DNA of 33,132 nucleotides. It comes from Caulobacter sp. GTDB taxonomy: Bacteria; Pseudomonadota; Alphaproteobacteria; Caulobacterales; Caulobacteraceae. The DNA lies in assembly GCA_026225565.1 (NCBI GenBank), contig JAMFTA010000152.1, forward strand, positions 1 to 33,132. The letters run 5' to 3'. Positions 902 to 31,080 of the stretch are shown piece by piece. The notes below the pieces were generated by a model. The model was given only the letters and a program-made list of their open reading frames with translations. It made no database searches and was not told the DNA's origin. Made by a program: the position numbers and the translations under genes. Positions within the stretch are counted from its first letter, which is position 1; every line of letters begins with the position of its first letter.

Positions 902-2530
902 CTAGGCCGGCAAGAGGTCGAAGGCGACGCTGAGTCTCACGCCGTCGCCGGCGAACGGCTCGGTGCCGTGCCACATATAGGAGGGGAACAACACCAGCCG
1001 CCCCGGCTGCGGCTTCACAAAATGCTCCGCCGGCAGGGGCAGCGCCGTGGCGATCCCCGGCTCCCCGAACGTCAGCCAACCCGCCCGCTCGGGAGAGGCG
1101 GCGATCCCGGCGGGGAGGACGATGTGGCAGGCGGAAGAGAGCCAGCCCTTGTGATGCACATGACTGACGTGGCGCCCGCCGCCCCCGTTCAGCCGCACCG
1201 ACCATAGCCCCTGCAAACGGCTCTGGCCGGTATTGCGCGCGCGCACCAAGTCAGACCCTTGTCCCAAGGCCGCCAACCGGCGCTCGATGGGCCCGGCCAC
1301 CGCTTGAAGAAAGCCCCGGATGGCGGGATCGTTCGACGCCATCAGATCGGGGGCCTGGCTGCCGTTCAAGAGCGACTGCTGGAAGGGATGGGCGCGGAAC
1401 AGATGGGCGCGCGCCAGGGCCGCGGCCAGGTCTGCTAGATAGTCGTCCAGCCGGCTCCACCCGTCGGGGGTGTCCAGAAGCGAGGTCGAGACCAGATCGT
1501 CGTAATCGTAAAGGGCGTGATAGCGCTCGTCGCCGAGCAGTCGCCACGCCGTCCCCTGATAGGCGATGACGTTCTGATCCAACGGAGCCTCGGCGCGAAG
1601 CTGGCCGATCAGCGGCGCGGCCTTGGAGGCCTCCCCCAGAGCCAGCAGCGCTTCGCAGACCGCGAGGCGGGTCCAGAGGCTCGCCGGCTGGGCCGCCACC
1701 GCCGCTCGCGCGTGGGCCAGCCCCTCCGCAGGATGGCCCGACAGGATGGCGAGATGGGCGACGCCGACCCGCACCGCGGCGTCGCCGGGGAACAGGACGG
1801 CGTCCTGCATAGCCGTCTCATAGGCGCCGGGGATGTCGCCGCAGAATTTCAGGGCGATGGCGCGCACTTCAAGGAGCCGTGGATCCGGGCCGCCGGTCAC
1901 CAGCGCGATGTCGAGGGGCTTGATCGCTTCTTTGACGTCGCCCGTCCGCATCCAGATCAGCTGCGCCAGCTCTCTTTGGGCGTCCCCATGACGGGGATTG
2001 CGGGTGAGCGCCTCGTAATAGCCCGATTGGCTCTCCTCCAACCGGCCGAGGCCCTGGAGCGCGCGGGCCAGCACCAGCCAGGTTTCGGGCGCGTCGAGCC
2101 CGGCGGAGAGGGCCTTGCGGGCGAAACTCGCCGCAGCCTCGAACTGCGACAAGTTCCCAAAAGCGCCGGCGAGATTGTGCGAGGCGATGGCGCTTTTAGG
2201 ATTCTCTTCAGCGGCGCGGCGGTAGGCGCTCAAGGCCTCCTCTGACCGGCCGAGCACCATCAGGGTCTGGGCGTGGGCGGCGAGGGCGGCGTGAGCGGCG
2301 GGGACGCGGGCCACGAACGGGGCGGTGATCGCTAGGGCCTCGCCCCCGCGGCCGAGGCCGCGCAGCAGGTCCGCCAATCCGGCGGCGGCCTCCGACGATA
2401 GCGGATCGGCCTTCAACGCCTGTCGATAGGCGGCCTCCGCCCGACGCACGTCGACGCGCCCGGTCAGATATTGCTGGGCTTCGCGCACCCGGCTCGGGGC
2501 GCTGGTCTTAAGGGAGGCGTTCATCGTCAT
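902..2530 (-). CDS. TPR protein with C-terminal 2OG-Fe(II) oxygenase domain
   Basis: A 542-residue protein. The first ~330 residues are a run of TPR-like 34-residue helical hairpins (for example PKSAIASHNLAGAFG and RHGDAQRELAQLIW). The last ~180 residues match the putative 2OG-Fe(II) oxygenase family PF13759. The candidate iron ligands are in HVHHKGW (H457 to H460), with a distal histidine in MWHGTEPF (H521), and the 2-oxoglutarate-binding arginine is in RLSVAFD (R532). There is no signal peptide, so it should act in the cytoplasm, presumably as a hydroxylase of a protein or peptide held by the TPR solenoid; the substrate is unknown. It follows the TPR-sulfotransferase gene after 42 bases on the same strand and is probably cotranscribed. 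A second in-frame ATG at 2524 is also a possible start. Confidence 0.87.
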   Translation of the reverse strand: MTMNASLKTSAPSRVREAQQYLTGRVDVRRAEAAYRQALKADPLSSEAAAGLADLLRGLGRGGEALAITAPFVARVPAAHAALAAHAQTLMVLGRSEEALSAYRRAAEENPKSAIASHNLAGAFGNLSQFEAAASFARKALSAGLDAPETWLVLARALQGLGRLEESQSGYYEALTRNPRHGDAQRELAQLIWMRTGDVKEAIKPLDIALVTGGPDPRLLEVRAIALKFCGDIPGAYETAMQDAVLFPGDAAVRVGVAHLAILSGHPAEGLAHARAAVAAQPASLWTRLAVCEALLALGEASKAAPLIGQLRAEAPLDQNVIAYQGTAWRLLGDERYHALYDYDDLVSTSLLDTPDGWSRLDDYLADLAAALARAHLFRAHPFQQSLLNGSQAPDLMASNDPAIRGFLQAVAGPIERRLAALGQGSDLVRARNTGQSRLQGLWSVRLNGGGGRHVSHVHHKGWLSSACHIVLPAGIAASPERAGWLTFGEPGIATALPLPAEHFVKPQPGRLVLFPSYMWHGTEPFAGDGVRLSVAFDLLPA

Positions 2531-2572
2531 TCCATAAACCGCGCGGGGAGGCTCGCAAACCTCATGGGCGAA

Positions 2573-4249
2573 TTAACCGTCCCCATAACCGAAGGCCTCG
2601 ACCCACGGCTGAAGCAGAGGCAGGGCCGGCGCCATCTGCTCGGCATAGGCGCGCCATCGCCCGACGCCCCGGGCATTCACGCCCCCCTGCAGCTGGCGGG
2701 CGGTTTGCGAGGAAACCTGGCCGCGACCCGCCGATGCGCCGAACGCCGTCATCGCCGGATCGAACTCAAGGCCGATGTGCTCGCACACCGCGCGCACCGC
2801 CCCTTCGAAATCGTCCACCAAGGCTTCGTGCCGATGATCGTAGATCTGAAGGTCGAGACTTGCGCGGTAGCGGCTGACCAGACTCATGTAGGCGTCGTAG
2901 AGCCGCGCCGCGTCGGCCAGGTCGGACAGTTCATAGGCGTATCCGTTGGGCCGCAGCCGCCGCTGAAAACAGCTGAAGACCACATCCCTAGGATCGCGCA
3001 GGGCGAAAACGATCCTTGCCTCAGGAAAGAGCTTGGCGATCAGCGGCAGCTTGGCCCCGTTGAAGGGCAGCTTGTCCACGAACACCTTGCCCGCTGGCTC
3101 CACGCCTGCGCCCCGCACCGCCGCCCAATAGGCGCGGCGATAGTCGTCGGCCTCAGGCGCATCGAGATCGGCGAGGCGGTCAAAACCGTCGGCCCGCACC
3201 AACAGGTCCGCGCCGGCCGCCAGCGCCTCGGTCTCTTCCAAGGCCGCCACGTCCGGGTGACGGGCGAGGGCTTGCTCAAGCAGGGTGGTGCCCGAGCGCA
3301 TGAACCCCATCAAAAAGACATGGCGGCGGGGCGGGGCCGCGTCGACCGGCGCCAGCGAGGGCGCCAGCGCCCAAGCCTCGGCGCCGAGGTCGGCGCGGGC
3401 GAAGGCGGTCTGCATGTCTCGGAAGGTCGCCGATAGGGGCCTCGTCTGAAAAGCCTGCAGGCTCTTGGCGTATGTCGTGCGGAACGCGGCATTGCTGTCC
3501 GCATAGGCTTGGAAGGCCTCCGCCGCCCGCCCCTGTCCATCCAGGGCGTCCCCCAAAAGGCCCGTCGCCTGATGGCGAGCGTTCGGACCGAGGGAGGCGA
3601 TGGAAAGCCAGTCCCGCGCCCCGTCCTCCGCCTTGGCGAATTGACGGTCGTCGATATCCGCCTCGATCAGCGCGCGCCGGGCGTCCGGATCGGCCGGGGC
3701 GATCTGCAAGGCGCGGGCCGCCATCGACCGGGCTTCCACGCCGTCGCCGCGGTGGGCGGCGAGCAGGGCCAGCTTGCCGAACGCCGGCCCCTGCGGATCC
3801 AGCTGGGCAGCCCGCTCAAAGCTCGCCCGAGCGTCCACCAGCGCACCGGCCGCCAGTTGCGCGGCGCCGAGGTTGAACTGGCTGTCGGGAATATCGGGCC
3901 GGGTTCGCACGGCGGCCTCCAGCACGCCCATGGCGCGGTCGTGGGCGCCGGCCCGGGTGAGGCGCACCCCCAGGGCGTTGGCGACCGCCACATCATCCGG
4001 ATCTATTCGATAGGCCCGCTCCAAGTCGATCAGGGCTTCGTCAAGCCGGCCCGAGCGCTCTCGCCCCACCGCCCGCACCTGCAATAGCTTGGGATGTTCG
4101 ATCCCTTGGCTCAGGGCGTGCTCCGCCCAACGGATCGCCTTGGGCCAGTCGCCGGCCTTGGCGGCGCCCAGCACGTCTGCGACCCAGGCCAGCACCCGCT
4201 CCTGAGGCGGACCGGCCTGGGGCGGAAGGGAAAGAGCGTTATCGGACAT
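2573..4249 (-). CDS. TPR-sulfotransferase (copy 1)
   Basis: A 558-residue protein with an N-terminal TPR solenoid (about residues 20-260) and a C-terminal PAPS-dependent sulfotransferase domain. The 5'-phosphosulfate loop is MRSGTT (317-322), and the 3'-phosphate-binding segment is RDPRDVVFS (from 418). The sequences ALEET (near 336-340) and VDKLP (391-395) resemble the positions of the catalytic E-E-T and the K-L-P segment of animal tyrosylprotein sulfotransferases. The family transfers sulfate from PAPS to tyrosine or another hydroxyl; the acceptor is unknown here. No signal peptide is present, so action is cytoplasmic. The gene is divergent from the TonB receptor at 4549 across 299 bases and lies upstream of the TPR-oxygenase gene. 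A paralogue is at 8915-10573. Confidence 0.9.
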   Translation of the reverse strand: MSDNALSLPPQAGPPQERVLAWVADVLGAAKAGDWPKAIRWAEHALSQGIEHPKLLQVRAVGRERSGRLDEALIDLERAYRIDPDDVAVANALGVRLTRAGAHDRAMGVLEAAVRTRPDIPDSQFNLGAAQLAAGALVDARASFERAAQLDPQGPAFGKLALLAAHRGDGVEARSMAARALQIAPADPDARRALIEADIDDRQFAKAEDGARDWLSIASLGPNARHQATGLLGDALDGQGRAAEAFQAYADSNAAFRTTYAKSLQAFQTRPLSATFRDMQTAFARADLGAEAWALAPSLAPVDAAPPRRHVFLMGFMRSGTTLLEQALARHPDVAALEETEALAAGADLLVRADGFDRLADLDAPEADDYRRAYWAAVRGAGVEPAGKVFVDKLPFNGAKLPLIAKLFPEARIVFALRDPRDVVFSCFQRRLRPNGYAYELSDLADAARLYDAYMSLVSRYRASLDLQIYDHRHEALVDDFEGAVRAVCEHIGLEFDPAMTAFGASAGRGQVSSQTARQLQGGVNARGVGRWRAYAEQMAPALPLLQPWVEAFGYGDG

Positions 4250-4271
4250 AGTCCCAGGCTAAGTCAGTAAA

Positions 4272-4283
4272 TGGCGATCGCCA
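4272..4283. promoter_or_regulatory. Perfect 12-bp palindrome upstream of the sulfotransferase
   Basis: TGGCGATCGCCA is a perfect palindrome 22 bases before the start codon of the divergent sulfotransferase gene. It could be an operator in that leader. Symmetry is the only evidence, and GC-rich 12-mers of this kind also arise by chance. Confidence 0.25.
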
Positions 4284-4433
4284 AATGGGGCATGATCGCC
4301 CCCAAACAGCCACAAAGAATGCCTTGCGCAGGGCCAAAACCACTCAGGTTTGGGCTTGCAAAGCAATCGTCCGCCCCAATGAGGCCCTAATGTGACAAAA
4401 AAGGCGCTGATCGGGTCAAAATCAGGGCCGGCA

Positions 4434-4468
4434 TTGACCACCTCCGTCATGAAACTATCATTGGTCAA
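4434..4468 (+). promoter_or_regulatory. Putative sigma-70-type promoter with inverted repeat, TonB receptor gene
   Basis: TTGACC (4434-4439) and TATCAT (4456-4461) are separated by 16 bases and have the form of a -35/-10 pair, giving a leader of roughly 80 bases before the receptor start. The same stretch holds an inverted repeat, TTGACCA (4434-4440) and TGGTCAA (4462-4468), which flanks the -10 box and could be an operator. No other gene-like content is convincing in the 299-base gap, whose AT content is higher than that of the flanking genes. Confidence 0.4.
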
Positions 4469-4515
4469 CTCGCGGGGTTTATGCCGCGCAGGACATTTTT
4501 TTCGGGCGGTTAAGT

Positions 4516-4540
4516 GGTCGCAAGCGACCTCTAAGGGGAT
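4516..4540 (+). promoter_or_regulatory. Leader hairpin and ribosome-binding site of the TonB receptor
   Basis: A small perfect hairpin, GGTCGC-AA-GCGACC (4516-4529), lies directly before the ribosome site AAGGGGAT (4533-4540). The ribosome site is 8 bases from the ATG at 4549 and fixes that start. The hairpin leaves the ribosome site free, so it may stabilise the 5' end of the message rather than block translation. Confidence 0.35.
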
Positions 4541-4548
4541 AATTCAAC

Positions 4549-7500
4549 ATGCAGTCCAGACGTACCCGTCTTATGGGATCGACGATCTTTGCCGGGGCCT
4601 TCGCGCTCGGCTTCGGCGGCGTTGCGGCCGCTCAAACAGCGACGCCGACCGTCGCCCCCGCCGAAGTGGTGGTCACGGGCAGCCGCATCCGCCAGCCGAA
4701 CCTGACCTCCGTCAGCCCGATGACCGTGGTCACCGACCAGGAGATCAAGCTCGAGGGCGCGCAGAACATTGAAAACCTGCTGAACGGTCTGCCGTCGATT
4801 ACGGCGGGCCAGCAGTCCAACGTCTCCAACGGCTCCACCGGCACCGCCACCGTCGATCTGCGCGATCTCGGCCCGGCCCGCACCCTGGTGCTGGTGGACG
4901 GCAAGCGCCTGATGCCGGGCGACCCCAAGTCGCCCTATGCCGACTTGAATAACATTCCCTCCGCCATGGTCGAGCGGGTTGACGTGGTCTCCGGCGGCGC
5001 CTCCGCCGTTTACGGCGCCGACGCCGTGGCCGGCGTGGTCAACTTCATCATGAAGAAGAACTTCCAGGGCGCCGAGGTTGACGCCCAATACGGCTTCGCC
5101 GAGCACGAGAACAACAATGCCAGCGCTCGTAATCTGCAGGGCGTGCAGGGCATCAGCAACTTCGCCAAAGCGCCTAACAACTACACGACGGGGCTTTCCT
5201 CCGAGGTCTCCGCCATTATCGGCGTGAACGCCCCGGACGATAAGGGCAACATCACTGGCTACCTCACCTGGCGGAAGCTGGAGGCGGTGACGCAGGACCA
5301 CTACGACGTCAGCTCCTGCTCGATCGCGGCGACTAGCAAGAACATCTCGGACTCGTACAACTACAACGCTCATACCTGCGCCGGTTCGAGCAACAGCCAA
5401 TACGGCCGTTTTACGCTGCAACCCGATAGCCGTAACGCCGGCTCCGTTGGCGGCACGCAATTTCACGTCAACCCGGACGGCAGCCAAACCTTCACCACCG
5501 CTAAAGTTCCTGCCTACAATTACGCCCCGACCAACTATTTCCAACGGCCTGAAGACCGTTACACCGCCGGCTTCAACGCCCATTACGAGGTCAATAAGCA
5601 GCTGGATCTCTATTCCAGCCTGATGTTCGCCGACGACCATACCCTTGCTCAGATCGCGCCTAGCGGCCTGTTCGCCGGAACCGGCTCCAACAAGACCGCC
5701 TATTATCAGATCAACTGCAACAACCCGCTGATGTCCGCCAGCGAGCAGACCCAAATGTGCGGTTCGGCGGCGGGGACCGGCGCGCTAGTGAACGCGCAAA
5801 TCGGCTTCCGCTTCGCCGGCTACAACCGTCAAGACGACCTTCGCCACACCAACTACAAGATGGACGTGGGTGCCCGCGGCGAAATCGCGCCGGGCTGGAA
5901 CTATGACGCCTATCTGCAATACGGCACCTCCATCTACGCGGAGCACTACAATAACGATGCGTCGATCCGGAAAATCCAGAACGCGCTTCTGGTGACCACC
6001 AACGCCGCAGGCCAGCCGGTCTGCACGACCGACGTCGGCAGCTGCGTGCCGCTGAATATCTTCCAGTACGGCAAGCTTACCCCGGCGATGCTGGGCTATG
6101 TGCTTACGCCGGGCTACAAGTCGGGTGAAACCGTCGAGCAGATCGCCAGCGCCTCCGTCACCGGCGATCTTGGCCAATAGGGCTGGAAGTCGCCATGGGC
6201 CAATTCCGGCGTCGGCGTCGCCCTCGGCACCGAATATCGTCGGGAAAGCCTGAACGTCAGCGTGGACGACGAATTCTCCTCCGGGGACCTTTCGGGTCAG
6301 GGCGGTCCGACCCTGGGCTCAGCCGGCAGCTTCGATGTCTATGAACTCTTCGGTGAAATTCGTGCGCCGCTGATCGAGGACAAGCCCTTTGTCAAGAGCC
6401 TGACCATGGACGCGGGCTACCGCTTCTCCGATTACAGCACCTCGGGAAAGACCGACACCTATAAGCTAGAAGGCGATTGGGCGATCAATTCCTCCATCCG
6501 TCTGCGCGCCGGTTACAATCGCGCGGTTCGGGCGCCCAATATCAATGAACTCTACGATGCCGCGGCGGTCGCCAATACATCAGCCGCCGATCCCTGTGCG
6601 AACCAAACCAGCTATAGCCAGGCCTGTCTGAACACCTTCATCGGCGAAGCCGCGACGAACCACGAAACGGTCGCCCAGGCGGCGGCGAGGCTGATAAACA
6701 TCGGCCAATGCCCAGCTGCGCAATGCTCAGGCCTCTTCAGCGGCAACGCCAACCTGAAGCCGGAAACCGCCGACACCTACACCGCCGGCGTGGTCTTCAC
6801 CCCGACTTTGAGCTGGCTGCGCGGCTTCAGCGGCAGCATCGATTACTACAACATTCAAGTCTACAACTACATCAACCAGCCGGCGGCGAGCGCTGTTCTG
6901 GGAGAATGCGAAGGCGGCAACATGACCGCATGCGGCCTGGTTCAGCGCGATCCGCTGACCGGGATCCTCTACGGCTCGACCGGCTATGTCGTCGACCAGG
7001 AGGTCAACAGCGGTTATCAGAAGACCCAAGGGCTCGACGTCACGGCCAATTATCGCTTCCATCCGGCCGACTGGAACCTGCCCAACTGGGGCACCCTGAA
7101 CATCGCCATGATCGGCACCCACGTCTTCAAGCTGCAGACCCAGCCGATCGCCCAAGGGGGCTCCTACGACTGCGCCGGCCTCTACGGGCCGACTTGCGGC
7201 GTGCCGCTTCCCCGTTGGCGCAGCAAGGTGCGGTTCACCTACACGCCCCCGACCCTGCCGGTCTCCTTCTCGCTCGATTGGCGCTATATCGGCGGTGTGA
7301 AATTTGACGCCAACCAAGGAAACCTGGGCTCCACGCCCAATGGCGTGCCGGTCACCACGGTCACGGGCAATTCACTGCTCGCCAGCCACCCGTCCGGCAT
7401 CACCGATACGGCTGATGAACAGATCGACGCCTACAACTACATCGATCTGTCGGCCACCTGGCGCGTTCGCGATAACCTGAACCTGCGCGCTGGGGTCACC

Positions 7501-7644
7501 AACCTGATGGATAAGGATCCGCCGATCTTGGACTCCAACGACATCCCAGCCTCCGGTCCGCCGGAAGGCAACGGCAACACCTATCCGGGGGTTTACGACA
7601 GCCTTGGCCGGACCTTCTTCATCGGTCTGACCGCGGACTTCTAA
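4549..7644 (+). pseudogene. TonB-dependent receptor, interrupted by one in-frame amber codon
   Basis: One reading frame runs from ATG 4549 to TAA 7642-7644 with a single TAG at 6178-6180 (codon 544), so the open parts are 4549-6180 and 6181-7644. Read through, it would be about 1031 residues, normal for this receptor class. Signal peptide about 1-28 (ending VAAAQ); TonB box EVVVTG at 39-44; plug domain about 50-170; the rest is a barrel rich in Tyr, Asn and Gly, ending in the aromatic GLTADF typical of outer-membrane barrels. The frame continues directly after the stop with GWKSPWANSGVGVALG, a conserved barrel segment, so nothing is lost but one codon; from memory of relatives, Tyr is the likely original residue. 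Loops carry Cys pairs (for example INCNNP and QMCGS). The ligand is unknown. It is flanked by hydroxylases and sulfotransferases. Nonsense mutation, sequencing error or readthrough are all possible. Confidence 0.85.
6178..6180 (+). other. In-frame TAG within the TonB receptor
   Basis: TAG follows the residues GDLGQ and precedes GWKSPW in the same frame. It is the only disruption seen in about 3.1 kb of frame. A single base change from a tyrosine codon (TAT or TAC), or from CAG, would explain it. Confidence 0.9.
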
Positions 7645-7670
7645 GCGACCCTACGAAGGCGTAGACTGGA

Positions 7671-7697
7671 AAGGCGGCGAACCTTGTTCGCCGCCTT
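7671..7697 (+). terminator. Rho-independent terminator after the TonB receptor
   Basis: A perfect 12-bp stem, AAGGCGGCGAAC (7671-7682) and GTTCGCCGCCTT (7686-7697), with a CTT loop, followed by TTCTT. It begins 26 bases after the receptor stop codon. The tail runs into the start region of the next gene, so that gene depends on readthrough or on its own promoter within or near the receptor gene. Confidence 0.8.
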
Positions 7698-7717
7698 TTC
7701 TTATGGTGGAAAGACCC

Positions 7718-8920
7718 ATGGAGGGACTGAGTTCGCCCATTCCCGCCCTGCAGCCTCATGAGGCGGTGGGGCGGGCGATGGCCGCCCGTGATTTCCGTCT
7801 CGCCTCAACCCTGTTGCGGGAGATCGTCGCCCAGGGGGGCGCAGACATCTCGACCTGGCTGCAGCTGGCCGCCTGTCACCGGGCGATTGGCGCGATCGAA
7901 GAGGCGCTGGACGCTGTGGAGGGCGCGCTGCGCCTCGATCCCAGAAGCTTCGTCTCCCTCTTGATGAAGGCGTCGCTGTTGGAGCGGGCCGGCCGCCTGC
8001 GCGAGGCGGGCCCCGCCTATGGCGTCGCCATTCTGCTGGCCCCGCCCGAGACGCAGCTGGACGGACCCACCCGCCAGGCCCTGGCCCACGGCCGGGCGGT
8101 GAACATGGCCTATGGTTCGGAGCTGGCCGATTTTCTTCGCGCCGAGGTGCAGGCCCAGGCGGCGGGCCCGCCCGCCCAGGCCCGGCGCATCGACGCCTTC
8201 ATCGACCTGATGCTGGGCCGACGGAAAAATTACCGGCAAGAGCCTCACGGCTACTTCTATCCCGGTCTGCCAGCCATCGAGTTTTGGGAGCGGGAAGAGT
8301 TTCCCTGGCTAGCCGAGTTGGAGGGAGCCACCCCGGCGATCCGCGAAGAACTCATGGCCGTGATGCAAGACGGCCCGGCGGCCTTCATTCCCTACATCGA
8401 CTATTCCGACAGCGCGCCACTCGATCAATGGGCGGCCCTGAACAGATCGCGCCATTGGGGCGCCTTCCATCTGCTCGCCTATGGTCGGCGGGTGGAGGAA
8501 AATTGCCGTAAGTGCCCGCAAACCCTGGCGGCGCTCGCAAAGACGCCCCAGCCGAAGGCGCCAAACCGCTCGCCATCGGCGATGTTCTCAGCGCTTGAAG
8601 CCCGCACCCACATCCCCCCCCATACGGGCATAGCCAACACCCGTCTTGTGGTGCATCTGCCCTTGATCGTGCCTGAGGGATGCCGGTTTCGCGTCGGCAA
8701 TGAGACGCGCACCTATGACGACGGCCGGGCCTGGGTGTTTGACGACACCATCGAACACGAGGCGTGGAACGACAGCGACGATCCCCGCCTCATCCTGCTG
8801 TTCGATATTTGGAACCCACGCCTCTCGCCTTGGGAGCGCGAGATGATCGGCGCCGTCAGCGGCGCCCTGGATCAGTTCAACGGGACGCCGGCGCCGGACC
8901 TTGGCGTCTCTAGCCTATGA
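7718..8920 (+). CDS. TPR protein with aspartyl/asparaginyl beta-hydroxylase domain
   Basis: A 400-residue protein. The ATG at 7718 is chosen over 7703 because GGTGGA lies just upstream of it, whereas the 7703 ATG sits in the terminator tail. Residues ~10-130 are TPR-like; the C-terminal half matches PF05118 (Asp/Asn beta-hydroxylase). Motifs are IPPHTGIANTRLVVHLPL (first iron histidine H302, with Gly at the usual carboxylate position as in AspH, then the 2OG arginine) and FDDTIEHEAWN (second histidine H347). The family hydroxylates Asp or Asn side chains using 2-oxoglutarate and O2. No signal peptide is present, so it should act in the cytoplasm. It follows the TonB receptor and its terminator, and its stop overlaps by 6 bases the stop of the convergent sulfotransferase. 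The substrate is unknown. Confidence 0.88.
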   Translation: MEGLSSPIPALQPHEAVGRAMAARDFRLASTLLREIVAQGGADISTWLQLAACHRAIGAIEEALDAVEGALRLDPRSFVSLLMKASLLERAGRLREAGPAYGVAILLAPPETQLDGPTRQALAHGRAVNMAYGSELADFLRAEVQAQAAGPPAQARRIDAFIDLMLGRRKNYRQEPHGYFYPGLPAIEFWEREEFPWLAELEGATPAIREELMAVMQDGPAAFIPYIDYSDSAPLDQWAALNRSRHWGAFHLLAYGRRVEENCRKCPQTLAALAKTPQPKAPNRSPSAMFSALEARTHIPPHTGIANTRLVVHLPLIVPEGCRFRVGNETRTYDDGRAWVFDDTIEHEAWNDSDDPRLILLFDIWNPRLSPWEREMIGAVSGALDQFNGTPAPDLGVSSL

Positions 8921-10573
8921 CGCCTCTGACGCCACGTCGGGAGCGTAGCCAAATCGTTCCACCCAGGGCCTTAAGATCGGCAACATCGCCGCCGTCTCGT
9001 CCCCATAACGCCGCCAGCGGCCCATGCCTTCGGTGAAAAGACCGCGGCGCACCTGTTCGGCGCTGGGGGTGCGCACATCCCGGCGCTTGGCCGTTTCGGC
9101 GAAGTCGCGCATCCCCTCGCTTTGAGCGATGCCGAGGAAGTCGCAGATGCGGCCGACTTCGCCGTCGAAATCGAGCACTATGTCCTCGTGCTTATGTTGG
9201 TAGAGGGTCAGACCTAATTTCTTCCGGTAACGATCCACAAGGTCCATCACCGCACGATAGAATTGAGCCGTCGCGACCAGATCTGTGAACGCCCATGCCA
9301 GCGCATTGATCTGGAAACGATGGCGGAACGAACTGACCACAACGTCCCTGGGATCGCGCACGGCGAACAGCACCTTGGCGTCCGGGAATAGCTTGGCCAC
9401 CATGGGCAGCCAGAGCGAGGACAGGGGAGCCTTGTCCACGAACACCTTGTCCGTAGGATCGACGCCGAAGCTGCTGACCCGCGCCCAATAGTCCGCCCGC
9501 AGACGATCCGCTTCTTCGGCGTCAAGATGTTTCAGCCGTTCCAGGCCCTCATCGTCGCTGAAATAGGCCGGCGTGAGCGCGCGCAAGGTCGCCTGCTCTT
9601 CCAGGGCCACGACGTCCGGATGGCTGGCCAAGACCTGCTCCAGCAAGGTGGTGCCGGAACGGACGAAACCGACGAGAAACACGTGCCCCTTACACGGCGG
9701 CGTCGCGACACCCGCAGCCGGGCTCCAATCCCCCGCGGTCGAAGCGTCCATTGCGGCCTGCAGACGCTCAGCCAACTGGATTCCGATCTCCACGTCCGGG
9801 CGAGAGTAGAGGGGGCTGTGGATCTCGCGCACCAGCTGATTGGCTTGGGTATAGAGCGCGAAGGCCTCGACCGGGCGGTCCAGCATTTCCAGCTCATCGG
9901 CGAGCAACTGTTGGGCGGCGGCCCTATGCAGGGGACTGATGGTTTTATCCAAAAGCGCCGTCAGCCGCTGGGCGGCGATAGCGTGATCGCCAGCCTTGGC
10001 GTCCAGCTTGGCCATCACCATCACCGCGCTCGCCTGGCCGGCGTCCAACGCCAGGGCCCTCTCCGCCAAAAGTCGTGCTGTGGAGCCGTCGTCTTTGCGC
10101 AGGGCGAGATCGGCCAAGGCCCCCAGGGGATCAGGATAACGGGGGTCGAGATCGGCCGCCCGTAAAAAGGCGCGTCGGCCCTCGTCGAGCTCCCCCAGCA
10201 CAAGCAGGCATGTCCCCCGCCCGTTGTGGGCCGGCGCATGGCCGGGATGGATGGTCGCCGCCCCATCGAAATAGATGAGCGCCTGTCGGTCTTTTCCCTG
10301 TTGAGATAGGGTGGCGCCAATGGAGGTAAGAATTAGGACGTCGTTCGGAGAAAGCTCCAGCGCCCGCATGAGGCGATCCAAGGCTTCGTCCAACCGGCCC
10401 TCCCGCTCAAGCGCAAAGGCGGAGAGGTTCAACAGCAAGGGGTGGTCGATCCCCGCTTGCAAGGCTTCGTCTGCAAGCACGATCGCCCGATCAGTGTCAG
10501 CCGCGTCGAGGGCCGCCATGACAGCGTCGAGACGGCGCTGAACCGTTAAAGACGTCGCTTGTAAATCGACCAT
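8915..10573 (-). CDS. TPR-sulfotransferase (copy 2)
   Basis: A 552-residue paralogue of the protein encoded at 2573-4249 with the same layout: TPR solenoid about residues 10-250, then a PAPS-dependent sulfotransferase domain. The 5'-phosphosulfate loop is RSGTTL (305-310), followed by VVALEEQ, which has E-E but Q in place of the T seen in copy 1; KVFVDKAPL lies near 376-384; the 3'-phosphate segment is RDPRDVVVS (from 406). The C-terminal GMGRWRRYGD matches GVGRWRAYAE of copy 1. No signal peptide is visible. The two copies have clearly diverged in the TPR part, which suggests different partners or acceptor sites. It is convergent with the TPR-hydroxylase and divergent from the tandem P4H-like genes across 177 bases that show only short, unconvincing symmetry. 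Confidence 0.9.
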   Translation of the reverse strand: MVDLQATSLTVQRRLDAVMAALDAADTDRAIVLADEALQAGIDHPLLLNLSAFALEREGRLDEALDRLMRALELSPNDVLILTSIGATLSQQGKDRQALIYFDGAATIHPGHAPAHNGRGTCLLVLGELDEGRRAFLRAADLDPRYPDPLGALADLALRKDDGSTARLLAERALALDAGQASAVMVMAKLDAKAGDHAIAAQRLTALLDKTISPLHRAAAQQLLADELEMLDRPVEAFALYTQANQLVREIHSPLYSRPDVEIGIQLAERLQAAMDASTAGDWSPAAGVATPPCKGHVFLVGFVRSGTTLLEQVLASHPDVVALEEQATLRALTPAYFSDDEGLERLKHLDAEEADRLRADYWARVSSFGVDPTDKVFVDKAPLSSLWLPMVAKLFPDAKVLFAVRDPRDVVVSSFRHRFQINALAWAFTDLVATAQFYRAVMDLVDRYRKKLGLTLYQHKHEDIVLDFDGEVGRICDFLGIAQSEGMRDFAETAKRRDVRTPSAEQVRRGLFTEGMGRWRRYGDETAAMLPILRPWVERFGYAPDVASEAS

Positions 10574-10750
10574 ATGCCGTCCGGTGACAGAGGATAAAGA
10601 ACCGCCCGTGGAGGGCTTATCGCGGGGCCACCGTTATCACGGCCGCACCGCTGCGGGAATGAGCAGGCGGATACGCCAGAAACCTTTCCCCGGTCACCGC
10701 CGCCAACTAGAATTCAGCTGCGCCGCCTATGTATCTGTTCCAGGACAGCG

Positions 10751-11695
10751 ATGACCGCCGATCTTACGCTATCCCGATTGGATCTATCGTTGGCGGTTCG
10801 AGAAGCCCTGGCGTTGTTCCTCGGTGAGCGGGAAGCAGCGCGGCCGCAAGATGGCATGACGCTGCTAGCCGAGGCGGCGGATCGCGGCGATGGAGAGGCC
10901 GCCAACCTGATGGCAACGCTTTGCGCATCGGGCGGTGCGGCGTCACCGGACTGGCCAGCGGCGTTGGACTATCTTCAACTGGCGGCGGAACTCGGGTCCG
11001 CTTCTGCCCAGGGGCAGCTCACGGTACTGGCGGACGGCCCATCGTGGAGCGCTCGTCGCGGCGCCTTCGATCTGGGGGCTTGGTTGACGCCTCCGCCTCG
11101 CCAGATCCTATGTGAAAGGCCGAGGGTGCGGGCTTGCGCTAATTTTGTCCCGCCGGCCATGTGCGACTGGCTGGTCGATCGCGCCCGGGGGCGGCTGAGC
11201 CCCGCAGCCACCTTGGAAGGGGATGAAGGCGAGGCGAGGTTAACCTCTAACCGCACCAACAGCCATTTCGCCTTCGACCTTATCAGCGCTGACTGCATCT
11301 TGGCGCTTGTCCGCCAACGGATCAGCAACCTGCTGACATTGCCGATCATCGCCATGGAGCCACCGCAGATTTTTCACTATGCTCCTGGCCAGGAGTTCAA
11401 ACCTCACGTGGACTATCTGCACCGCCCGGATCGGCCGCTCGATGGTGAGACACATCCGGGTGATCGGATCGCCACCTTTCTCGTCTATCTCAACGCCAAT
11501 TTTGAAGGCGGCGAAACTTGGTTCCCCCGCGCGAATCTCAAGGTCAAGGTGTCTAAGGGCGATGGGCTTTACTTTGCGAACGTGGACGCCGACGGCGCGC
11601 CCGATCCGCAGAGCTTGCACGCGGGACTGGCCCCGCTGAACGGAGAAAAGTGGCTGCTGTCCCAGTGGATTCATGATCGGCCGTTCGGTCGATGA
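10751..11695 (+). CDS. Sel1-like/prolyl-4-hydroxylase-type 2OG-Fe(II) oxygenase (copy 1)
   Basis: A 314-residue protein. Residues ~35-95 are a Sel1-like helical-repeat pair (LLAEAADRGDGEAANLM and ALDYLQLAAELGSASA). Residues ~200-310 are a P4Hc-type oxygenase domain with all key residues: H219 and D221 in KPHVDYL, H290 in SLHAGL and the 2OG-binding K300 in GEKWLLSQW. The conserved HYAPGQEF and FEGGETWFP segments are typical of bacterial P4H relatives. The family hydroxylates proline or related residues in proteins; the substrate here is unknown. AGGA lies 7 bases before the ATG. The stop overlaps the start of the next gene (ATGA), so the two are translationally coupled. No signal peptide is visible. 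Confidence 0.88.
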   Translation: MTADLTLSRLDLSLAVREALALFLGEREAARPQDGMTLLAEAADRGDGEAANLMATLCASGGAASPDWPAALDYLQLAAELGSASAQGQLTVLADGPSWSARRGAFDLGAWLTPPPRQILCERPRVRACANFVPPAMCDWLVDRARGRLSPAATLEGDEGEARLTSNRTNSHFAFDLISADCILALVRQRISNLLTLPIIAMEPPQIFHYAPGQEFKPHVDYLHRPDRPLDGETHPGDRIATFLVYLNANFEGGETWFPRANLKVKVSKGDGLYFANVDADGAPDPQSLHAGLAPLNGEKWLLSQWIHDRPFGR

Positions 11696-12606
11696 CAGTG
11701 GTCTCCAAGACAATTCAGGCCGCGAAGGCGCGTCTGCTGGGCGCCGAAGGCGGACCCCAGGCCGGCGTTGCATTGTTGCGAGAGGCGGCGGAGCGCGGCG
11801 ATCCGCAGGCGGCGAATCTGATGGCCACCCTCTGCGCTTCGGGGGCGTGGATGCCGCAAAGCTGGCCAATGGCGCTGGACTTTCTGGCGCTGGCCGCGGA
11901 GCGCGGCTCCCTCTCCGCCCAGGGGCAACTCTTGTTGCTGGCGCGCGAAGGTGAGACTTGGCAGGCGCGACGGGAGGCGATCCCTATGGAGGCTTGGCTT
12001 GCACCGCCCAATCGCCGCCCCCTGTGCGAGCATCCGCGTGTGCGCACATCGGAGGCGTTTATTCCCCCGCCGATGTGCGACTGGCTGATCGGTTTGGCGC
12101 AAGGCCGGCTTCAACCGGCGAAGATGGTCGAGAGCTATGGAGGGGAAGCGCGGCTGACGCCCGACCGCACCAACAGCGACTTTGTTTTCGATATATTCGG
12201 CGCCGACTGCGTCCTCGCCCTTGTCCGAGAGCGGATCAGCGCGCTGGTCAAGTTGCCCATCGCGGCCATGGAGCCGCCGCAAATCTTCCACTACGCCACC
12301 GGCCAGGAGCTGAGGCCGCACGTGGACTATCTTCAACGGGCAGACCGTATCGGCGTCGGCTCTTATGAAGGCGATCGCATCGCCACGGTGCTGGTCTATC
12401 TCAACGACGGGTTCGAGGGCGGTGAGACGTGGTTTCCTCGCCCCGATCTAAAGGTGAAGGCGGCCAAGGGCGACGCCCTCTATTTCGCGAATGTGGATGC
12501 CGCCGGGGCGCCCGATCCGGAAAGTCTTCACGCGGGATTGCCGCCGCTGCGGGGAGAGAAATGGCTGCTGTCCCAATGGATCCACGACCGGCCGTTCGGG
12601 GGGTAG
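11692..12606 (+). CDS. Sel1-like/prolyl-4-hydroxylase-type 2OG-Fe(II) oxygenase (copy 2)
   Basis: A 304-residue tandem paralogue of the preceding gene, about three-quarters identical by eye over the last ~110 residues and less so in the middle. Sel1-like repeats occupy residues ~25-85 (ALLREAAERGDPQAANLM). The catalytic residues are intact: H210 and D212 in RPHVDYL, H280 in SLHAGL and K290 in GEKWLLSQW. The main differences cluster at 213-226, just after the HxD motif, and in the central segment ~85-160, where substrate choice might be set. Its ATG lies within the stop of copy 1 (ATGA), so expression is coupled. It ends the cluster; the next gene is on the other strand. No signal peptide is visible. 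Confidence 0.88.
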   Translation: MTVVSKTIQAAKARLLGAEGGPQAGVALLREAAERGDPQAANLMATLCASGAWMPQSWPMALDFLALAAERGSLSAQGQLLLLAREGETWQARREAIPMEAWLAPPNRRPLCEHPRVRTSEAFIPPPMCDWLIGLAQGRLQPAKMVESYGGEARLTPDRTNSDFVFDIFGADCVLALVRERISALVKLPIAAMEPPQIFHYATGQELRPHVDYLQRADRIGVGSYEGDRIATVLVYLNDGFEGGETWFPRPDLKVKAAKGDALYFANVDAAGAPDPESLHAGLPPLRGEKWLLSQWIHDRPFGG

Positions 12607-12676: not shown

Positions 12677-12961
12677 TCAATGACCCGGAGCGCCGCCCTT
12701 CATCATGGTGCTGCGGTCGACATAGTCTCGCGCGTTGCGGGTGATGTCGGCCCACTGGGTCTTCGTCTTGCACTCTCGTGTTGAAAAACGGGTGCCTGTG
12801 ACTTCGATGGATTTACAGACGACCGTGTCGCCGTCATCGGCTGGCGCAGTCGTGCTTGCAGGGGCGGCGGCGATCGTCTGAGCCGGGGGCGTGGATTGAC
12901 CTTCCGACGCTGCGGCTAGGGCAAGCGCCGCAGCGGTTAATGCCGATGCGATGAAAGTCAT
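12677..12961 (-). CDS. Small exported protein of unknown function
   Basis: A 94-residue protein with a typical signal peptide (hydrophobic SALTAAALALAAA, cleavage probably near residues 19-23). A low-complexity Ala/Thr/Pro linker follows, then a compact domain TVVCKSIEVTGTRFSTRECK with two cysteines 15 residues apart that could form a periplasmic disulfide. I recall small alphaproteobacterial proteins with a similar VCK-x-I/V-EVTG-R pattern, of unknown function. The C-terminus ends KGGAPGH. It is convergent with the tandem oxygenase genes, with 70 bases between, and reads from its own upstream region; a link to the modification cluster is only positional. Confidence 0.75.
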   Translation of the reverse strand: MTFIASALTAAALALAAASEGQSTPPAQTIAAAPASTTAPADDGDTVVCKSIEVTGTRFSTRECKTKTQWADITRNARDYVDRSTMMKGGAPGH

Positions 12962-14395: not shown

Positions 14396-15915
14396 CCCTG
14401 GCCGTCGACGATACGGTCTCTCCGCCGCAAACCGACTTCGATCCGGCGTCGGGCCAGGGCATGGCCGAGGCGATGCTGACCCCGCCGCTGACGCCGGAGA
14501 AAACCACCGCCCGCACCGGGCCCCTGCTGCCGATGATCATCGGCGCGGCCCTGTTCATGCAGACTCTGGACGCCACGGTGATCGCCAACGCCCTGCCGAC
14601 CATGGCCGTCTCCCTGCATCGCGACCCCTTGATGCTGAACCTGGCGATCACCGCCTATCTGTTGTCGGCGGCGGTGTTCCTGCCGATCTCGGCCTGGGTG
14701 GCGGATCGGTTCGGGGCCAAGCGCGTGTTTCGCGCCGCCATCGTCGGCTTTGCCGCCTCCTCGCTGCTCTGCGGCCTGTCGCAGAATCTATGGGAACTGG
14801 TGGGCGCGCGGATGCTGCAGGGGGTGGCGGGGGCGATGATGCTGCCGGTGGGGCGGCTGGTTCTGCTGAGAAGCGTGCCCAAGTCCGAGCTGGTGCGGGC
14901 CATGTCCTACCTGACCATGCCGGCCTTGCTGGGGCCGATCCTGGGACCGCCCATCGGCGGCTTCATCGTCACCTTCTCCTCCTGGCGCTGGATCTTCTTC
15001 ATCAATGTGCCGATGGGAATATTGGGGGTGACCCTGGCCACCCTGTTCATCCCCGATGTACGAGAGGCGGTGCGCGAGAAGCTGGATGTGCGCGGCTTCA
15101 TCCTCACCGGCTGCGGTCTGGCGGGGCTGGTTTACGGGTTCGACAACCTCGGCAAAAACATCCTACCCTTCGTTGTCGTGCTGGCCATGCTGGCGGGGGG
15201 GCTGATCTGCGGCGCGCTTTATGTATTCCACGCCCGGCGCACGCCCAACGCCATCCTCGATCTGTCGCTGCTCAAGATAAAGACCTTCACCGCCTCCACC
15301 GTCGGTGGGCTGTTCTCACGGCTGATTATCGGGGCGAGCCCGTTTCTGCTGGCCTTGGTGCTACAACTCGGCTTCGGTCTTTCGGCCTTCCAGGCGGGTC
15401 TGCTGACCTTTGCTGGCGCCGCCGGGGCGCTGTTGATGAAGACCACGGCGCGGCCGATCATCGGTCGCTTCGGCTTCAAGTCGGTGCTGATCGTCAACGC
15501 CATCGTCGTGGCGGCCATCTCGGGAAGCTACGCCCTCTTTCAGGCGAGCACGCCGCACTGGATTCTCTTGACCACCCTACTGATTGGCGGCTTCTTCCGC
15601 TCGCTGCAGTTCACCGCCCTGAACGCCATGGGCTATGCCGATGTGCCGCAACCACTGATGAGCCGGGCGTCGAGCCTCGCCAGCATGTTCCAGCAGCTGG
15701 CTCAGAGCCTGGGCATCGGGCTGGCGGCGACGCTGATCCATTACACCATCCTGGCACGGCACAGCCCCAAGATGGTCTCGGCGGACATCACCCCCGCTTT
15801 TGTCATCGTCGCGGCGCTGTCGCTGATCGCCCTCTTCTTCTATATCGCCTTGCCCAGGGATGCGGGGGCGGAGGTATCGGGCTGGGCGGCGACGCCCGCC
15901 GTGGTCGAGGACTGA
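14392..15915 (+). CDS. MFS transporter of the DHA2 (EmrB/QacA) type
   Basis: A 507-residue membrane protein starting at a GTG that overlaps the MarR stop. The longer frame back to 14185 lies inside marR and is not used. After a ~40-residue polar N-terminus come about 14 hydrophobic segments. The motif LDATVIANALPTMAVSL near helix 1 is characteristic of the 14-helix DHA2 drug:proton antiporters, as are WVADRFGAKRVF (motif A) and the GPILGPPIGGF segment (motif C-like). It probably exports toxic organic compounds across the inner membrane. Coupling to MarR supports inducible efflux. No membrane-fusion partner gene is adjacent. The gene converges on glpK with only 3 bases between stop codons. Confidence 0.9.
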   Translation: MTLAVDDTVSPPQTDFDPASGQGMAEAMLTPPLTPEKTTARTGPLLPMIIGAALFMQTLDATVIANALPTMAVSLHRDPLMLNLAITAYLLSAAVFLPISAWVADRFGAKRVFRAAIVGFAASSLLCGLSQNLWELVGARMLQGVAGAMMLPVGRLVLLRSVPKSELVRAMSYLTMPALLGPILGPPIGGFIVTFSSWRWIFFINVPMGILGVTLATLFIPDVREAVREKLDVRGFILTGCGLAGLVYGFDNLGKNILPFVVVLAMLAGGLICGALYVFHARRTPNAILDLSLLKIKTFTASTVGGLFSRLIIGASPFLLALVLQLGFGLSAFQAGLLTFAGAAGALLMKTTARPIIGRFGFKSVLIVNAIVVAAISGSYALFQASTPHWILLTTLLIGGFFRSLQFTALNAMGYADVPQPLMSRASSLASMFQQLAQSLGIGLAATLIHYTILARHSPKMVSADITPAFVIVAALSLIALFFYIALPRDAGAEVSGWAATPAVVED

Positions 15916-15918
15916 GCC

Positions 15919-17412
15919 TTAACCGTCGTCCTCGTCCATCCAGTTCATGGTCGCCTGCACCGCCTTCTTCCATTTGCGGTAGTGCTGCTCGCGGGTCTCG
16001 GGATCGAGCTTGGGTTTCCACTCGGCGGATTTCTTCCAATTGGCCTTCAGCGCCGCCTGATCGGGCCAAAAGCCCACCGCCAGGCCTGCGGCGTAGGCGG
16101 CGCCCAGGCAGGTGGTCTCGATCACCTTCGGACGGATCACCGGCGCGCCAAGAATATCGGCCTGCATCTGCATCAAGAGATTGTTGGGGACCATGCCCCC
16201 GTCGGCCTTCAGAGCGACCAGATCCACGCCGGAATCGGCGTTCATCGCCTCCACCACCTCGCGCACCTGCCAGCAGGTGGCCTCCAGCACCGCCCGGGCC
16301 AAATGCGCCTTGGTGACATAGCCGGTGAGGCCGGCGATCACGCCCCGGGCGTCCGCGCGCCAGTAGGGGGCGAACAGGCCGGAAAACGCCGGCACGAAAT
16401 AGCAGCCGCCATTATCCTTCACGCTCCCGGCCAGGGCTTCGATGTCCGGCGCTGTGTCCACCAGCCCCACATTGTCGCGAAACCACTGCACTAGGGCCCC
16501 GGCCACGGCGATGGAGCCTTCCAGGGCGTAGACCGGCTTGGCCTCGCCGATCCGATAGGCGAGGGTGGTGAGAAGGCCGTTCTTGGAGCGGATCGGCTTT
16601 TCGCCGGTGTTGACCAGTAAGAACCCGCCGGTGCCGTAGGTGCATTTGCCCTCGCCCGGTTCAAAGCAGGTCTGGCCGAACAGGGCGGCGTGCTGGTCGC
16701 CGAGCGCCCCGGCCACCTTCACGCCAGCCAGGACGCCGGTCGCCTCGCCGTAGACTTCGGAAGAGGAGCGGATTTCCGGCAGCATGGCGCGGGGGACGCC
16801 CATGGCCGCCAGCATGTCCTCATCCCAGTCCAGGGTCTTGAGATTCATCAGCATGGTACGGCTGGCGTTGGTCACGTCGGTGACGTGGCGGCCGGTGAGT
16901 TTCCAGATCAACCAGGTCTCCATGGTGCCGAACAGCACCTCGCCCGCCTCCGCGCGTTTACGGGCGCCCTTTACCTCGTCGAGCAGCCAGCGGATTTTCG
17001 GGCCGGAGAAGTAGGTCGCCAACGGCAGGCCGCATGTCTTGCGAAACCGGTCCTGGCCCTTCTGGCCGCCGAGCTTTTTGACCAGCTTGTCGGTGCGGGT
17101 GTCCTGCCAGACGATGGCGTTGTGGATCGGCAGGCCGGTGGCCTTGTCCCAGAGCAGCGTCGTCTCCCGCTGGTTGGTGACGCCGACGGCAGCCAGGTCC
17201 GCGGGTTTGATTTTCAGGCTCTCCAGCGCCTGTTTGACCACGGTCTCGACGTTGGCCCAGATCTCCAGACCGTCGTGCTCCACCCAGCCGGGACGGGGAA
17301 AGATCTGGCGGTGCTCCTTCTGCGCCACGGCGCAGATGTCGCCCTTGCGGTCGAAGACGATGCAGCGGGTGGAGGTGGTGCCCTGGTCGATGGCCGCGAC
17401 GTAGTCGGTCAA
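15919..17412 (-). CDS. glpK: Glycerol kinase
   Basis: A 497-residue FGGY-family kinase of standard length. It has the N-terminal phosphate-binding motif [13 protein letters not shown], the substrate segments [13 protein letters not shown] and [10 protein letters not shown], the [11 protein letters not shown] motif, and the C-terminal [10 protein letters not shown] and [16 protein letters not shown]. It phosphorylates glycerol to glycerol-3-phosphate with ATP in the cytoplasm. The start codon is TTG (17410-17412), set by GAGGGGA just upstream that overlaps the stop of the SDR gene 7 bases away, so the two genes are one operon. No glpF, glpD or glpR is nearby. Assignment as GlpK rather than another FGGY kinase rests on the long co-linear match to known GlpK motifs. 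Confidence 0.95.
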
Positions 17413-23028: not shown

Positions 23029-23100
23029 GCGCTGAATGTCCTGCGACCGATCTATGACGAAGCCCCTTCAGGGTGGCGAACTGTGCGGTCTTTCGAGCGA

Positions 23101-23856
23101 TCAGTAGTCAGCCTTCAGGGCGAGATAAAAGACATAGCCGTCCGCGTTTCCTGGACTCCAGGTCGGACCGACCGAGGCCAGCAGCGACCAGTGCGTCATC
23201 AGCTTGTAGGTCGCGGCGACATTCAGGGTCCGAAAGGCGTCGCCATCCTTCGCGTCACGGGTCTGCCCATAGAGTTCGGCGCCGAGGGACAGGCGTTCGC
23301 CGAGGGTCCGGCTGACCGCCACGCCCCCCTGCCAGAAATCAAGCTGGCCGGCTCCTGGGTTGATCTGATAGCCGCCGCCGCCGAACACCGACCAGGGACC
23401 AAAATCCTTTTCCGCCCAGACCGGCAAGAGCAGCCCGAATCGACCGCTCCCGAACCGGCGATCGGCCGTCGGCGCGAACAGGCGCGGGAAAACCGCGACA
23501 TCAGGCGTCCAGGTGTCATCCGACTGATGCAGGAACCGATATTTGACAGCCAGCTCCACATCGCCGGGGCCAGCGCGGAGGCCCTCCACAGCGAAGCTCC
23601 GGGCATTGTCGAACGCTAGGGGCAGGACCGCCGTCAGCTGCAGATCCTTGGCCACGCCATAGTTGAGGTCGAAACCGGCTTGGCCATCAAGGCTGCCCGG
23701 CGCGCCCGCGCCGACGGCGAAGTTGTAAATCTCCCAATGACCGACGTCGGTCGGGTCCGGGTCGTCGTTGAGGTAGGGCGGCCCCGCCGCCGCCGGGCCC
23801 ACCGCACCGCCGCCCGTCAAGGCGAGGATGATCGCAAGGCGCCGTAACGGTTTCAT
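23101..23856 (-). CDS. Exported outer-membrane barrel-like protein
   Basis: A 251-residue exported protein. The ATG at 23856 begins a good signal peptide (MKPLRRLAIILALTGGGAVG, cleavage near PAAAG); the frame also opens at TTG 23871. The mature protein starts PPYLNDDPDPTDVGHWEIY, seen in a group of alphaproteobacterial transporter-like barrels related to PF13557. Repeated amphipathic strands follow, such as AGFDLNYGVAKDLQLTAVLP and VELAVKYRFLHQSD, ending LALKADY. It is divergent from the PadR operon with a shared 76-base control region that contains a perfect palindrome, so PadR may control both. Substrate unknown. Confidence 0.75.
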   Translation of the reverse strand: MKPLRRLAIILALTGGGAVGPAAAGPPYLNDDPDPTDVGHWEIYNFAVGAGAPGSLDGQAGFDLNYGVAKDLQLTAVLPLAFDNARSFAVEGLRAGPGDVELAVKYRFLHQSDDTWTPDVAVFPRLFAPTADRRFGSGRFGLLLPVWAEKDFGPWSVFGGGGYQINPGAGQLDFWQGGVAVSRTLGERLSLGAELYGQTRDAKDGDAFRTLNVAATYKLMTHWSLLASVGPTWSPGNADGYVFYLALKADY

Positions 23857-23908
23857 GATCTTATCGAACAAATCTCATCGCCCCGTTTATCGCCGTTGCG
23901 CAACAACA

Positions 23909-23920
23909 CAACATATGTTG
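23909..23920. promoter_or_regulatory. Candidate PadR operator palindrome
   Basis: CAACATATGTTG is a perfect 12-bp palindrome 12 bases before the padR-like start and 52 bases before the divergent outer-membrane protein start. PadR dimers usually bind inverted ATGT/ACAT half-sites, and this palindrome contains both in the core ACATATGT. It lies where it could block both promoters. Confidence 0.5.
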
Positions 23921-23932
23921 AGTTAGCAGGCA

Positions 23933-25613: not shown

Positions 25614-25660
25614 ACCGCCGACCCGCCCCCTCCACCAATGTCAGAACCGGAGCCCACACC

Positions 25661-31063: not shown

Positions 31064-31080
31064 GATTTCCCCCGGATCCT

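Follow-up and report, generated by a model that had tools for sequence, protein, structure and literature searches.

A TonB-dependent receptor gene among four oxygenase and two sulfotransferase genes in Caulobacter: a possible receptor-partnered protein-modification module

Why should the gene of an outer-membrane receptor lie among six genes for enzymes that would hydroxylate and sulfate? The question is raised by a 33,132-nucleotide stretch of DNA from Caulobacter sp. (assembly GCA_026225565.1, contig JAMFTA010000152.1; hereafter the window), which is the entire contig C20 of a draft genome of 3.69 Mb in 242 contigs. Between positions 902 and 12606, seven genes encode a TonB-dependent receptor (TBDR), two sulfotransferases (ST1 and ST2) and four 2-oxoglutarate (2OG)-Fe(II) oxygenases of three Pfam families (OG5, AspH and the pair P4Ha and P4Hb; Table 1). 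An earlier note on this DNA had given the same gene content, which Pfam bears out at the same positions, and had overlooked an in-frame TAG within the receptor gene. Our tentative answer is that the cluster encodes a receptor-partnered, cytosolic protein-modification module, with the receptor itself, prior to its export, as the likeliest substrate.

By sequence, the catalytic domains resemble enzymes that modify proteins, namely human AspH, the tyrosylprotein sulfotransferases and the prolyl 4-hydroxylases. AspH scores 160.9 bits against PF05118 (cut-off 22.6) and has human AspH as its closest solved protein (E 1e-33). Its residues H307, H318 and H352 are present in all 125 aligned relatives, and among these conserved histidines we take the iron-binding residues to lie. 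For both sulfotransferase catalytic domains, the closest solved relatives are protein-tyrosine sulfotransferases (E 1.7e-8 and 1e-7); for ST2 the closest is TPST2, and retinol dehydratase was also matched (E 1.4e-7). R305, G307, T309, E326, K381 and R406 of ST2 occur in 71/71 aligned relatives and align to residues of TPST2; presumably the RSGTT loop binds 3'-phosphoadenosine-5'-phosphosulfate (PAPS), while the Glu, Lys and Arg are catalytic. Both sulfotransferases are, on this evidence, tyrosylprotein-sulfotransferase-like. P4Ha is closest among solved proteins to the prolyl 4-hydroxylase 2jig (E 1.4e-32) and matches Sel1 weakly (E 0.002). The HxD...H...K motif (H219, D221, H290 and K300) is found in 11/11 aligned P4H proteins, both window copies included, and the P4Ha and P4Hb sequences place them as prolyl-4-hydroxylase-type enzymes. 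H457, H459, H521 and R532 of OG5 are present in each of 39 aligned relatives. The active sites, which the earlier note had read as intact, are thus invariant across the aligned relatives.

By sequence, the PF13759 domain of OG5 matched solved proteins weakly at best (3bvc, E 9e-4), and the structure of OG5 was modelled with AlphaFold2 (predicted local distance difference test, pLDDT, 92.5). From the strand list we read about nine tetratricopeptide repeats (TPRs) followed by a double-stranded beta-helix. The catalytic domain superposes on 3bvc with a Z of 16.6 (root-mean-square deviation, rmsd, 4.0; 182 residues aligned), a common fold that proves no function. The TPRs superpose on the OGT superhelix with a VIA Z of 20.8 (rmsd 9.4, 337 aligned), a value to be read knowing that repeat proteins reach high Z easily. 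A Foldseek search with the model ranked human AspH fifth (E 1.1e-11, TM 0.30 by query). Among relatives of the enzymes, TPR-like repeats were detected in 68/69 sulfotransferases, 32/39 OG5, 53/116 AspH and 0/11 P4H proteins; in the window AspH itself, the TPR matches score under the Pfam cut-offs.

Linkage of these enzymes to receptors of this kind extends well outside the window, to many bacteria of water and soil. We searched with a receptor profile built on receptors of AspH-anchored clusters, and labelled the best 80 of at least 596 named loci with home-made profiles of the catalytic domains only. At least one of ST, OG5, AspH and P4H lies within 7 kb of the receptor at 35 of the 80 loci, and at least two at 17 (by family: ST at 21, OG5 at 18, AspH at 17 and P4H at 2). 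These shares, 35/80 among them, are biased upward because of where the query receptors came from, a bias that leaves the decay with distance unaffected. Modifier density falls from 0.263 per kb in the first kilobase from the receptor to 0.071, 0.073, 0.039, 0.024 and 0.008 in the following ones and to 0 at 6–10 kb; these figures include a neighbouring methyltransferase found at 5/80 loci and keep the near-identical loci L127, L136, L140 and L182. The receptor profile overlooks some TBDRs, for example that of L238, which was found by Pfam alone, so absence of a TBDR from the labels is weak evidence. At L238 the receptor is accompanied by a PF03567 sulfotransferase, a short AspH, a TPR-sulfotransferase and a further AspH, and at L233 a receptor fragment lies with several AspH and sulfotransferase genes.

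Relatives of the window AspH occur in 79 of 199 genomes of the host family. Within 6 kb of 96 anchored AspH loci (96 of 100 loci passed the anchor rule; the 100 leave out ten other AspH places, namely G185:C15, G167:C1:2624890, G083, G037 twice, G024:C1, G146, G057:C3, G019 and G134), we counted a TBDR at 34, ST at 23, OG5 at 18 and P4H at 5, and TBDR density around AspH genes falls with distance from 0.098 per kb to 0. Modifier-bearing loci are proteobacterial throughout, and include Phenylobacterium, Novosphingobium, Sphingomonas, Sphingopyxis, Qipengyuania, Paucibacter, Inhella, Steroidobacteraceae, Microbulbifer, Thalassotalea, Endozoicomonas and Idiomarina; the non-proteobacterial loci in the set (L174, L190 and L191) carry no modifiers. 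Conserved linkage in related genomes, which the earlier note had named as the check on its idea, is thus seen both in the distance decay and across Caulobacteraceae, Sphingomonadales, betaproteobacteria and gammaproteobacteria.

Gene order and strand vary widely among the loci while much of the gene set is retained. A tree was built for 114 receptors after the near-identical loci had been omitted (87–91 with a known label, receptors near contig ends being left unlabelled here and in the residue tests below unless an enzyme was visible). On it, ST, AspH and OG5 require 11, 19 and 15 parsimony changes, compared with shuffled means of 30.5, 30.7 and 25.9. Modifier genes therefore follow receptor clades, yet have been repeatedly gained or lost. 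Three gammaproteobacterial loci share a downstream block and differ in the gene 3' of the receptor, which is OG5 in Endozoicomonas (L199) and ST in Lacimicrobium (L201), with neither in Shewanella olleyana (L204), where the first two genes of the block are DUF3450 and MotA/TolQ/ExbB-type. In Sphingopyxis terrae NBRC 15098 (L187), all the genes of a cluster of receptor, ST, AspH and OG5 are open. Five loci have beside the receptor a gene of one sequence group, an S-adenosylmethionine methyltransferase in both members tested. Another neighbour is common to six enzyme-free loci (two near-identical), and the single member tested is a GH2 beta-galactosidase.

The host genome itself adds a second case. 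It holds 38 plug domains, 12 PF13469 matches (two in one frame), three PF05118, one PF13759 and five PF13640, from which simple arithmetic gives an expectation of about 0.1 such enzyme genes within 6 kb of any given receptor; six are observed. All three PF05118 genes adjoin or are fused to a PF13469-like gene, on contigs C20, C55 (the fusion) and C225, where the sulfotransferase match is weak (24.2 bits; cut-off 27). The cluster on C55 (L017, 123–7268) comprises a TPR-sulfotransferase, a TBDR distant from the window receptor and an AspH::sulfotransferase fusion of 649 aa. Relatives of this fusion occur in 17 of 200 genomes of the order. They are full-length in eight, window genome included; the copy in G091 is interrupted, G291 has two matched pieces in one open frame, and the other seven genomes match one half. 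At L225, L227 and L234 the fusion directly adjoins a TPR-sulfotransferase. Fusion of a hydroxylase and a sulfotransferase in one protein is good evidence that both act on one substrate.

Because of the distance decay, the reshuffled gene orders with a similar set, the fusions and the protein-modifier-like catalytic domains often carried on TPR arms, there is good support for a shared hydroxylation and sulfation function with the receptor at its centre. We propose that it would work as follows. The enzymes would be cytosolic (none of their N-termini looks signal-peptide-like by eye, and that of the receptor does), and the TPR or Sel1-like solenoid arms of several could grip an extended polypeptide. 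The AspH-, PF13759- and prolyl-4-hydroxylase-type enzymes would hydroxylate this chain, and the tyrosylprotein-sulfotransferase-like enzymes would transfer sulfate from PAPS onto it. The chain would be the neighbouring TBDR, still unfolded and ahead of Sec export, whose extracellular loops would then arrive at the surface hydroxylated and sulfated, with possible effects on ligand binding or on recognition by phages and colicins. The receptor is the likeliest substrate by its neighbourhood and by analogy with the CciT-CciO pair of Caulobacter, in which CciT function is described as strictly requiring the adjacent cytoplasmic dioxygenase CciO (passages of PMC11870441). A more specific form of the proposal is improbable on present evidence: that hydroxyl acceptors made by AspH, PF13759 and P4H enzymes are then O-sulfated by the fused or neighbouring sulfotransferase, giving Gram-negatives a receptor surface code of sulfated hydroxy-amino acids laid down before export.

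Several results weigh against a modified receptor. No receptor column could be convincingly tied to ST, AspH or OG5 in 11, 19 and 14 phylogenetically independent pairs, a comparison of low power; naive column tests gave few and modest hits, the best of which (p 2.4e-4) links Tyr to ST at a column that strand order places in a periplasmic turn. Since the independent-pair contrasts were unconvincing, we leave target residues unnamed. Among the receptor relatives, 45/80 have none of the four modifier families within 7 kb, and 62/96 AspH loci have no profile-visible TBDR within 6 kb, some of them being ended by a contig edge. Several AspH-ST fusions likewise lack a TBDR in the fetched stretch (L225, L226 and L228–L232), as judged by the receptor profile with its tendency to overlook some. 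TPR-like repeats are found in just 53/116 AspH and 0/11 P4H proteins, the receptor frame in this assembly is interrupted by a TAG, and homologues of CciO have been suggested, in passages of the literature on that pair, to act on an imported substrate. The earlier note had proposed that a shared substrate, possibly the receptor, is hydroxylated and sulfated; co-function gains from the decay, the fusions and the reshuffling, and the receptor as substrate fails to find a residue association.

The interrupting TAG is receptor codon 544 (window 6178–6180), with coding signal on both sides. In an alignment of 13 relatives, for which open frames had been chosen, 12 have a sense residue at this codon and one has a gap. 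Stop-codon recoding was considered and dropped, as TAG is the ordinary stop in three neighbouring genes. Because relatives are open at codon 544, the coding pattern continues and TAG stops those three genes, the TAG is either a nonsense substitution or a draft-assembly error, and either the receptor gene here is broken or its assembly is wrong. All six enzyme genes have open frames. From an AlphaFold2 model of the receptor (pLDDT 78.7) combined with strand order, we predict that codon 544 falls in a periplasmic turn and that ten invariant cysteines sit in loops on the extracellular side. Profile comparison with solved proteins gave BtuB, the colicin I receptor and ferric enterobactin receptors as the closest, and the best NCBIfam matches are BtuB, CirA and FepA, all under cut-off. 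As the matches to solved receptors are strongest over the plug, the ligand cannot be predicted from them.

Intergenic gaps and strands suggest four units: ST1-OG5, with ST1 42 bp upstream of OG5 on the same strand; receptor-AspH, with AspH starting 58 bp past the receptor; ST2; and P4Ha-P4Hb, which overlap by 4 bp. Upstream of 12 of 114 receptors, about 70–190 bp 5' of the called start, there is a conserved DNA element, TGTGACCAGAATGCGACAGGTGGGCGCCCGAAACATT, whose copies differ from the typed core at 1 to 11 positions; these loci include L048, L051, L053, L055, L060, L067, L078 and L133, and the window receptor is not among the 12. The element is possibly a regulator site or a leader.

Table 1. 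Annotated features of the cluster and its flank, in window coordinates
Feature	Position	Strand	Evidence
OG5: ~9 TPRs + C-terminal PF13759 2OG-Fe(II) oxygenase, 542 aa	902-2530	-	Pfam E 7.4e-20
ST1: TPRs + PAPS sulfotransferase PF13469, 558 aa	2573-4249	-	Pfam E 2.4e-32
Divergent intergenic region between ST1 and receptor; contains TGTGACAAAAAAGGCGC	4250-4548	.	likeness to element 5' of receptors in one clade
TonB-dependent receptor, plug + barrel, in-frame TAG at codon 544	4549-7644	+	Pfam
AspH: TPR-like N-terminus + aspartyl/asparaginyl beta-hydroxylase PF05118, 405 aa	7703-8920	+	Pfam E 2.9e-47
ST2: TPRs + PAPS sulfotransferase PF13469, 552 aa, convergent with AspH	8915-10573	-	Pfam E 8.1e-31
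P4Ha: Sel1-like N-terminus + prolyl-4-hydroxylase-type oxygenase PF13640, 314 aa	10751-11695	+	Pfam E 1.7e-11
P4Hb: P4Ha paralogue, PF13640, 304 aa	11692-12606	+	Pfam E 5.8e-12
Small two-cysteine protein, 94 aa, signal-peptide-like N-terminus, recurring neighbour	12677-12961	-	no Pfam or NCBIfam family

Could the substrate be a peptide instead? The enzymes might modify a small secreted protein or a peptide like those ribosomally synthesized and post-translationally modified (RiPP-like), their own or a neighbour's, whose product the receptor imports or releases. We consider this rather unlikely. Passages of three papers give it parallels: methanobactin operons may hold a TonB-dependent transporter and a sulfotransferase (PMC3621798), in a halotolerance table, a lasso B2 protein, sulfotransferases and an aspartyl beta-hydroxylase have near-consecutive cluster numbers (PMC10040529), and CanE beta-hydroxylates a lasso precursor (PMC8498205). 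The best candidate is the small, exported-looking two-cysteine protein, whose sole match in the genome lies in the window cluster. It recurs at 16 modifier-bearing loci (L127 duplicating L034, and L077 having no visible receptor), and it occurs in 55/79 genomes with AspH and in 38/120 others (p 1.5e-7, kinship ignored). The family is nevertheless mostly located away from clusters: it is present in 93/199 host-family genomes, partly as tandem copies elsewhere, and among 20 further places two have a modifier (L215 and L222) and three more a distant TBDR (L209, L217 and L224). Separately, three loci (L205, L206 and L207) have three to five tandem copies and no modifier genes in the fetched stretch. 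An all-against-all comparison of 1826 small open reading frames (ORFs) from 73 cluster regions gave no small ORF recurring across most regions, among the groups listed, and many of the recurring groups look like antisense or conserved-DNA artefacts. A lasso peptide in particular was dropped, since the B2 marker PF13471 has 0 matches in the window genome and, by eye, none of the B2 places listed across the 199 family genomes shares a contig with an AspH place at a distance of 100 kb or less.

Somewhat more doubtful still is the possibility that the receptor imports a siderophore, peptide or glycoconjugate, which the cytosolic enzymes hydroxylate and sulfate for release, detoxification or use. 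Such ligand processing has been put forward for PiuC, YbiX and CciO (in passages of PMC12004943 and PMC11870441), and some clusters have an OppC-type permease close by. No inner-membrane importer, however, is constant among the recurring neighbours, and tyrosylprotein-sulfotransferase-like enzymes and TPR arms would be unusual in enzymes for small molecules. It appears very improbable that the genes are linked by genomic accident or merely share a hotspot with unrelated genes. Variable gene order and the many family members located elsewhere would fit such a reading, but it is contradicted by the sharp distance decay, the three proteobacterial classes, the independent changes, the fusions and the pairing with a second receptor. 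Modification of the receptor before export is the reading that we tentatively keep.

How much of this has been described before? A search of the open-access literature (PMC), with subscription journals mostly outside it, found no paper on this combination of receptor, hydroxylases and sulfotransferases. Part of the idea is already known, CciT-CciO being a described partnership of a TonB receptor with an oxygenase. CciT-CciO, PiuA-PiuC and Fiu-YbiX all resemble the window in having an outer-membrane receptor gene beside a cytosolic 2OG-Fe(II) oxygenase gene. The oxygenases CciO, PiuC and YbiX are short and are not known to have a TPR arm; compared with the short PKHD-type oxygenase of the CciT-CciO and PiuA-PiuC pairs, those of the window bear extra N-terminal parts. 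Such pairs have a single oxygenase and no sulfotransferase, in contrast to four oxygenases of three families and two sulfotransferases. Partnerships of the CciT-CciO type are also covered in passages of PMC12004943, and piuC mutations in connection with cefiderocol resistance in passages of PMC11878004.

Human AspH shares the AspH domain with the window and, with OG5, a TPR-plus-oxygenase layout, and TPST1/2 share the conserved RSGTT, E, K and R with the window sulfotransferases. Human AspH and TPST1/2 are enzymes of the animal secretory pathway, whereas the AspH and sulfotransferases of the window look cytosolic and are clustered with a receptor. RaxX is the partner of RaxST in Xanthomonas, and we know of no TonB receptor, hydroxylases or TPR arm in that system. 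TonB receptors are frequently found near lasso peptide clusters. The likeness of RaxST to the window is a bacterial sulfotransferase tied to tyrosine sulfation (PMC4216712), and that of lasso clusters is hydroxylation, perhaps sulfation, of one ribosomal peptide (passages of PMC8498205 and PMC10040529); lasso clusters carry the B2 marker, which the window genome lacks. Methanobactin operons, like the window, have a TonB-dependent transporter and in some groups a sulfotransferase (passages of PMC3621798). They differ in having a precursor MbnA with MbnB and MbnC, and a sulfotransferase of the PF00685 type where the window has PF13469. By Pfam, no MbnB-type family was found in the 20 window proteins scanned, a scan that left out 23083–26677 and did not include the precursor MbnA.

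Some further observations concern the surroundings. Elsewhere in the window, an extracytoplasmic function (ECF) sigma factor, a FecR and a second TBDR with an STN domain are consecutive on the minus strand (28268–32990), and an open frame of 508 aa on the plus strand (14790–16316) has no Pfam matches. On contig C7 of the same genome (G000:C7:41970-44794), the plug domain of another receptor is followed, 2.3 kb downstream, by a PF13640 oxygenase, and the two may form a pair of the CciT-CciO type. Among the loci, a family of about 180 aa with a signal-peptide-like start is found at 25/189 (e.g. L041 8698–9240), often adjoining the receptor or AspH, with no Pfam matches in the single member tested.

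If the receptor is indeed the substrate, bacterial protein hydroxylation and sulfation would be directed at outer-membrane receptors, by enzymes of the same kinds, AspH, P4H and TPST-like, that decorate secreted proteins in animals. The question why CciT, PiuA and Fiu keep a cytosolic oxygenase beside them could then also be seen in a broader setting. A natural series, from related loci free of modifiers to those with one or several, makes the question of the substrate directly testable.

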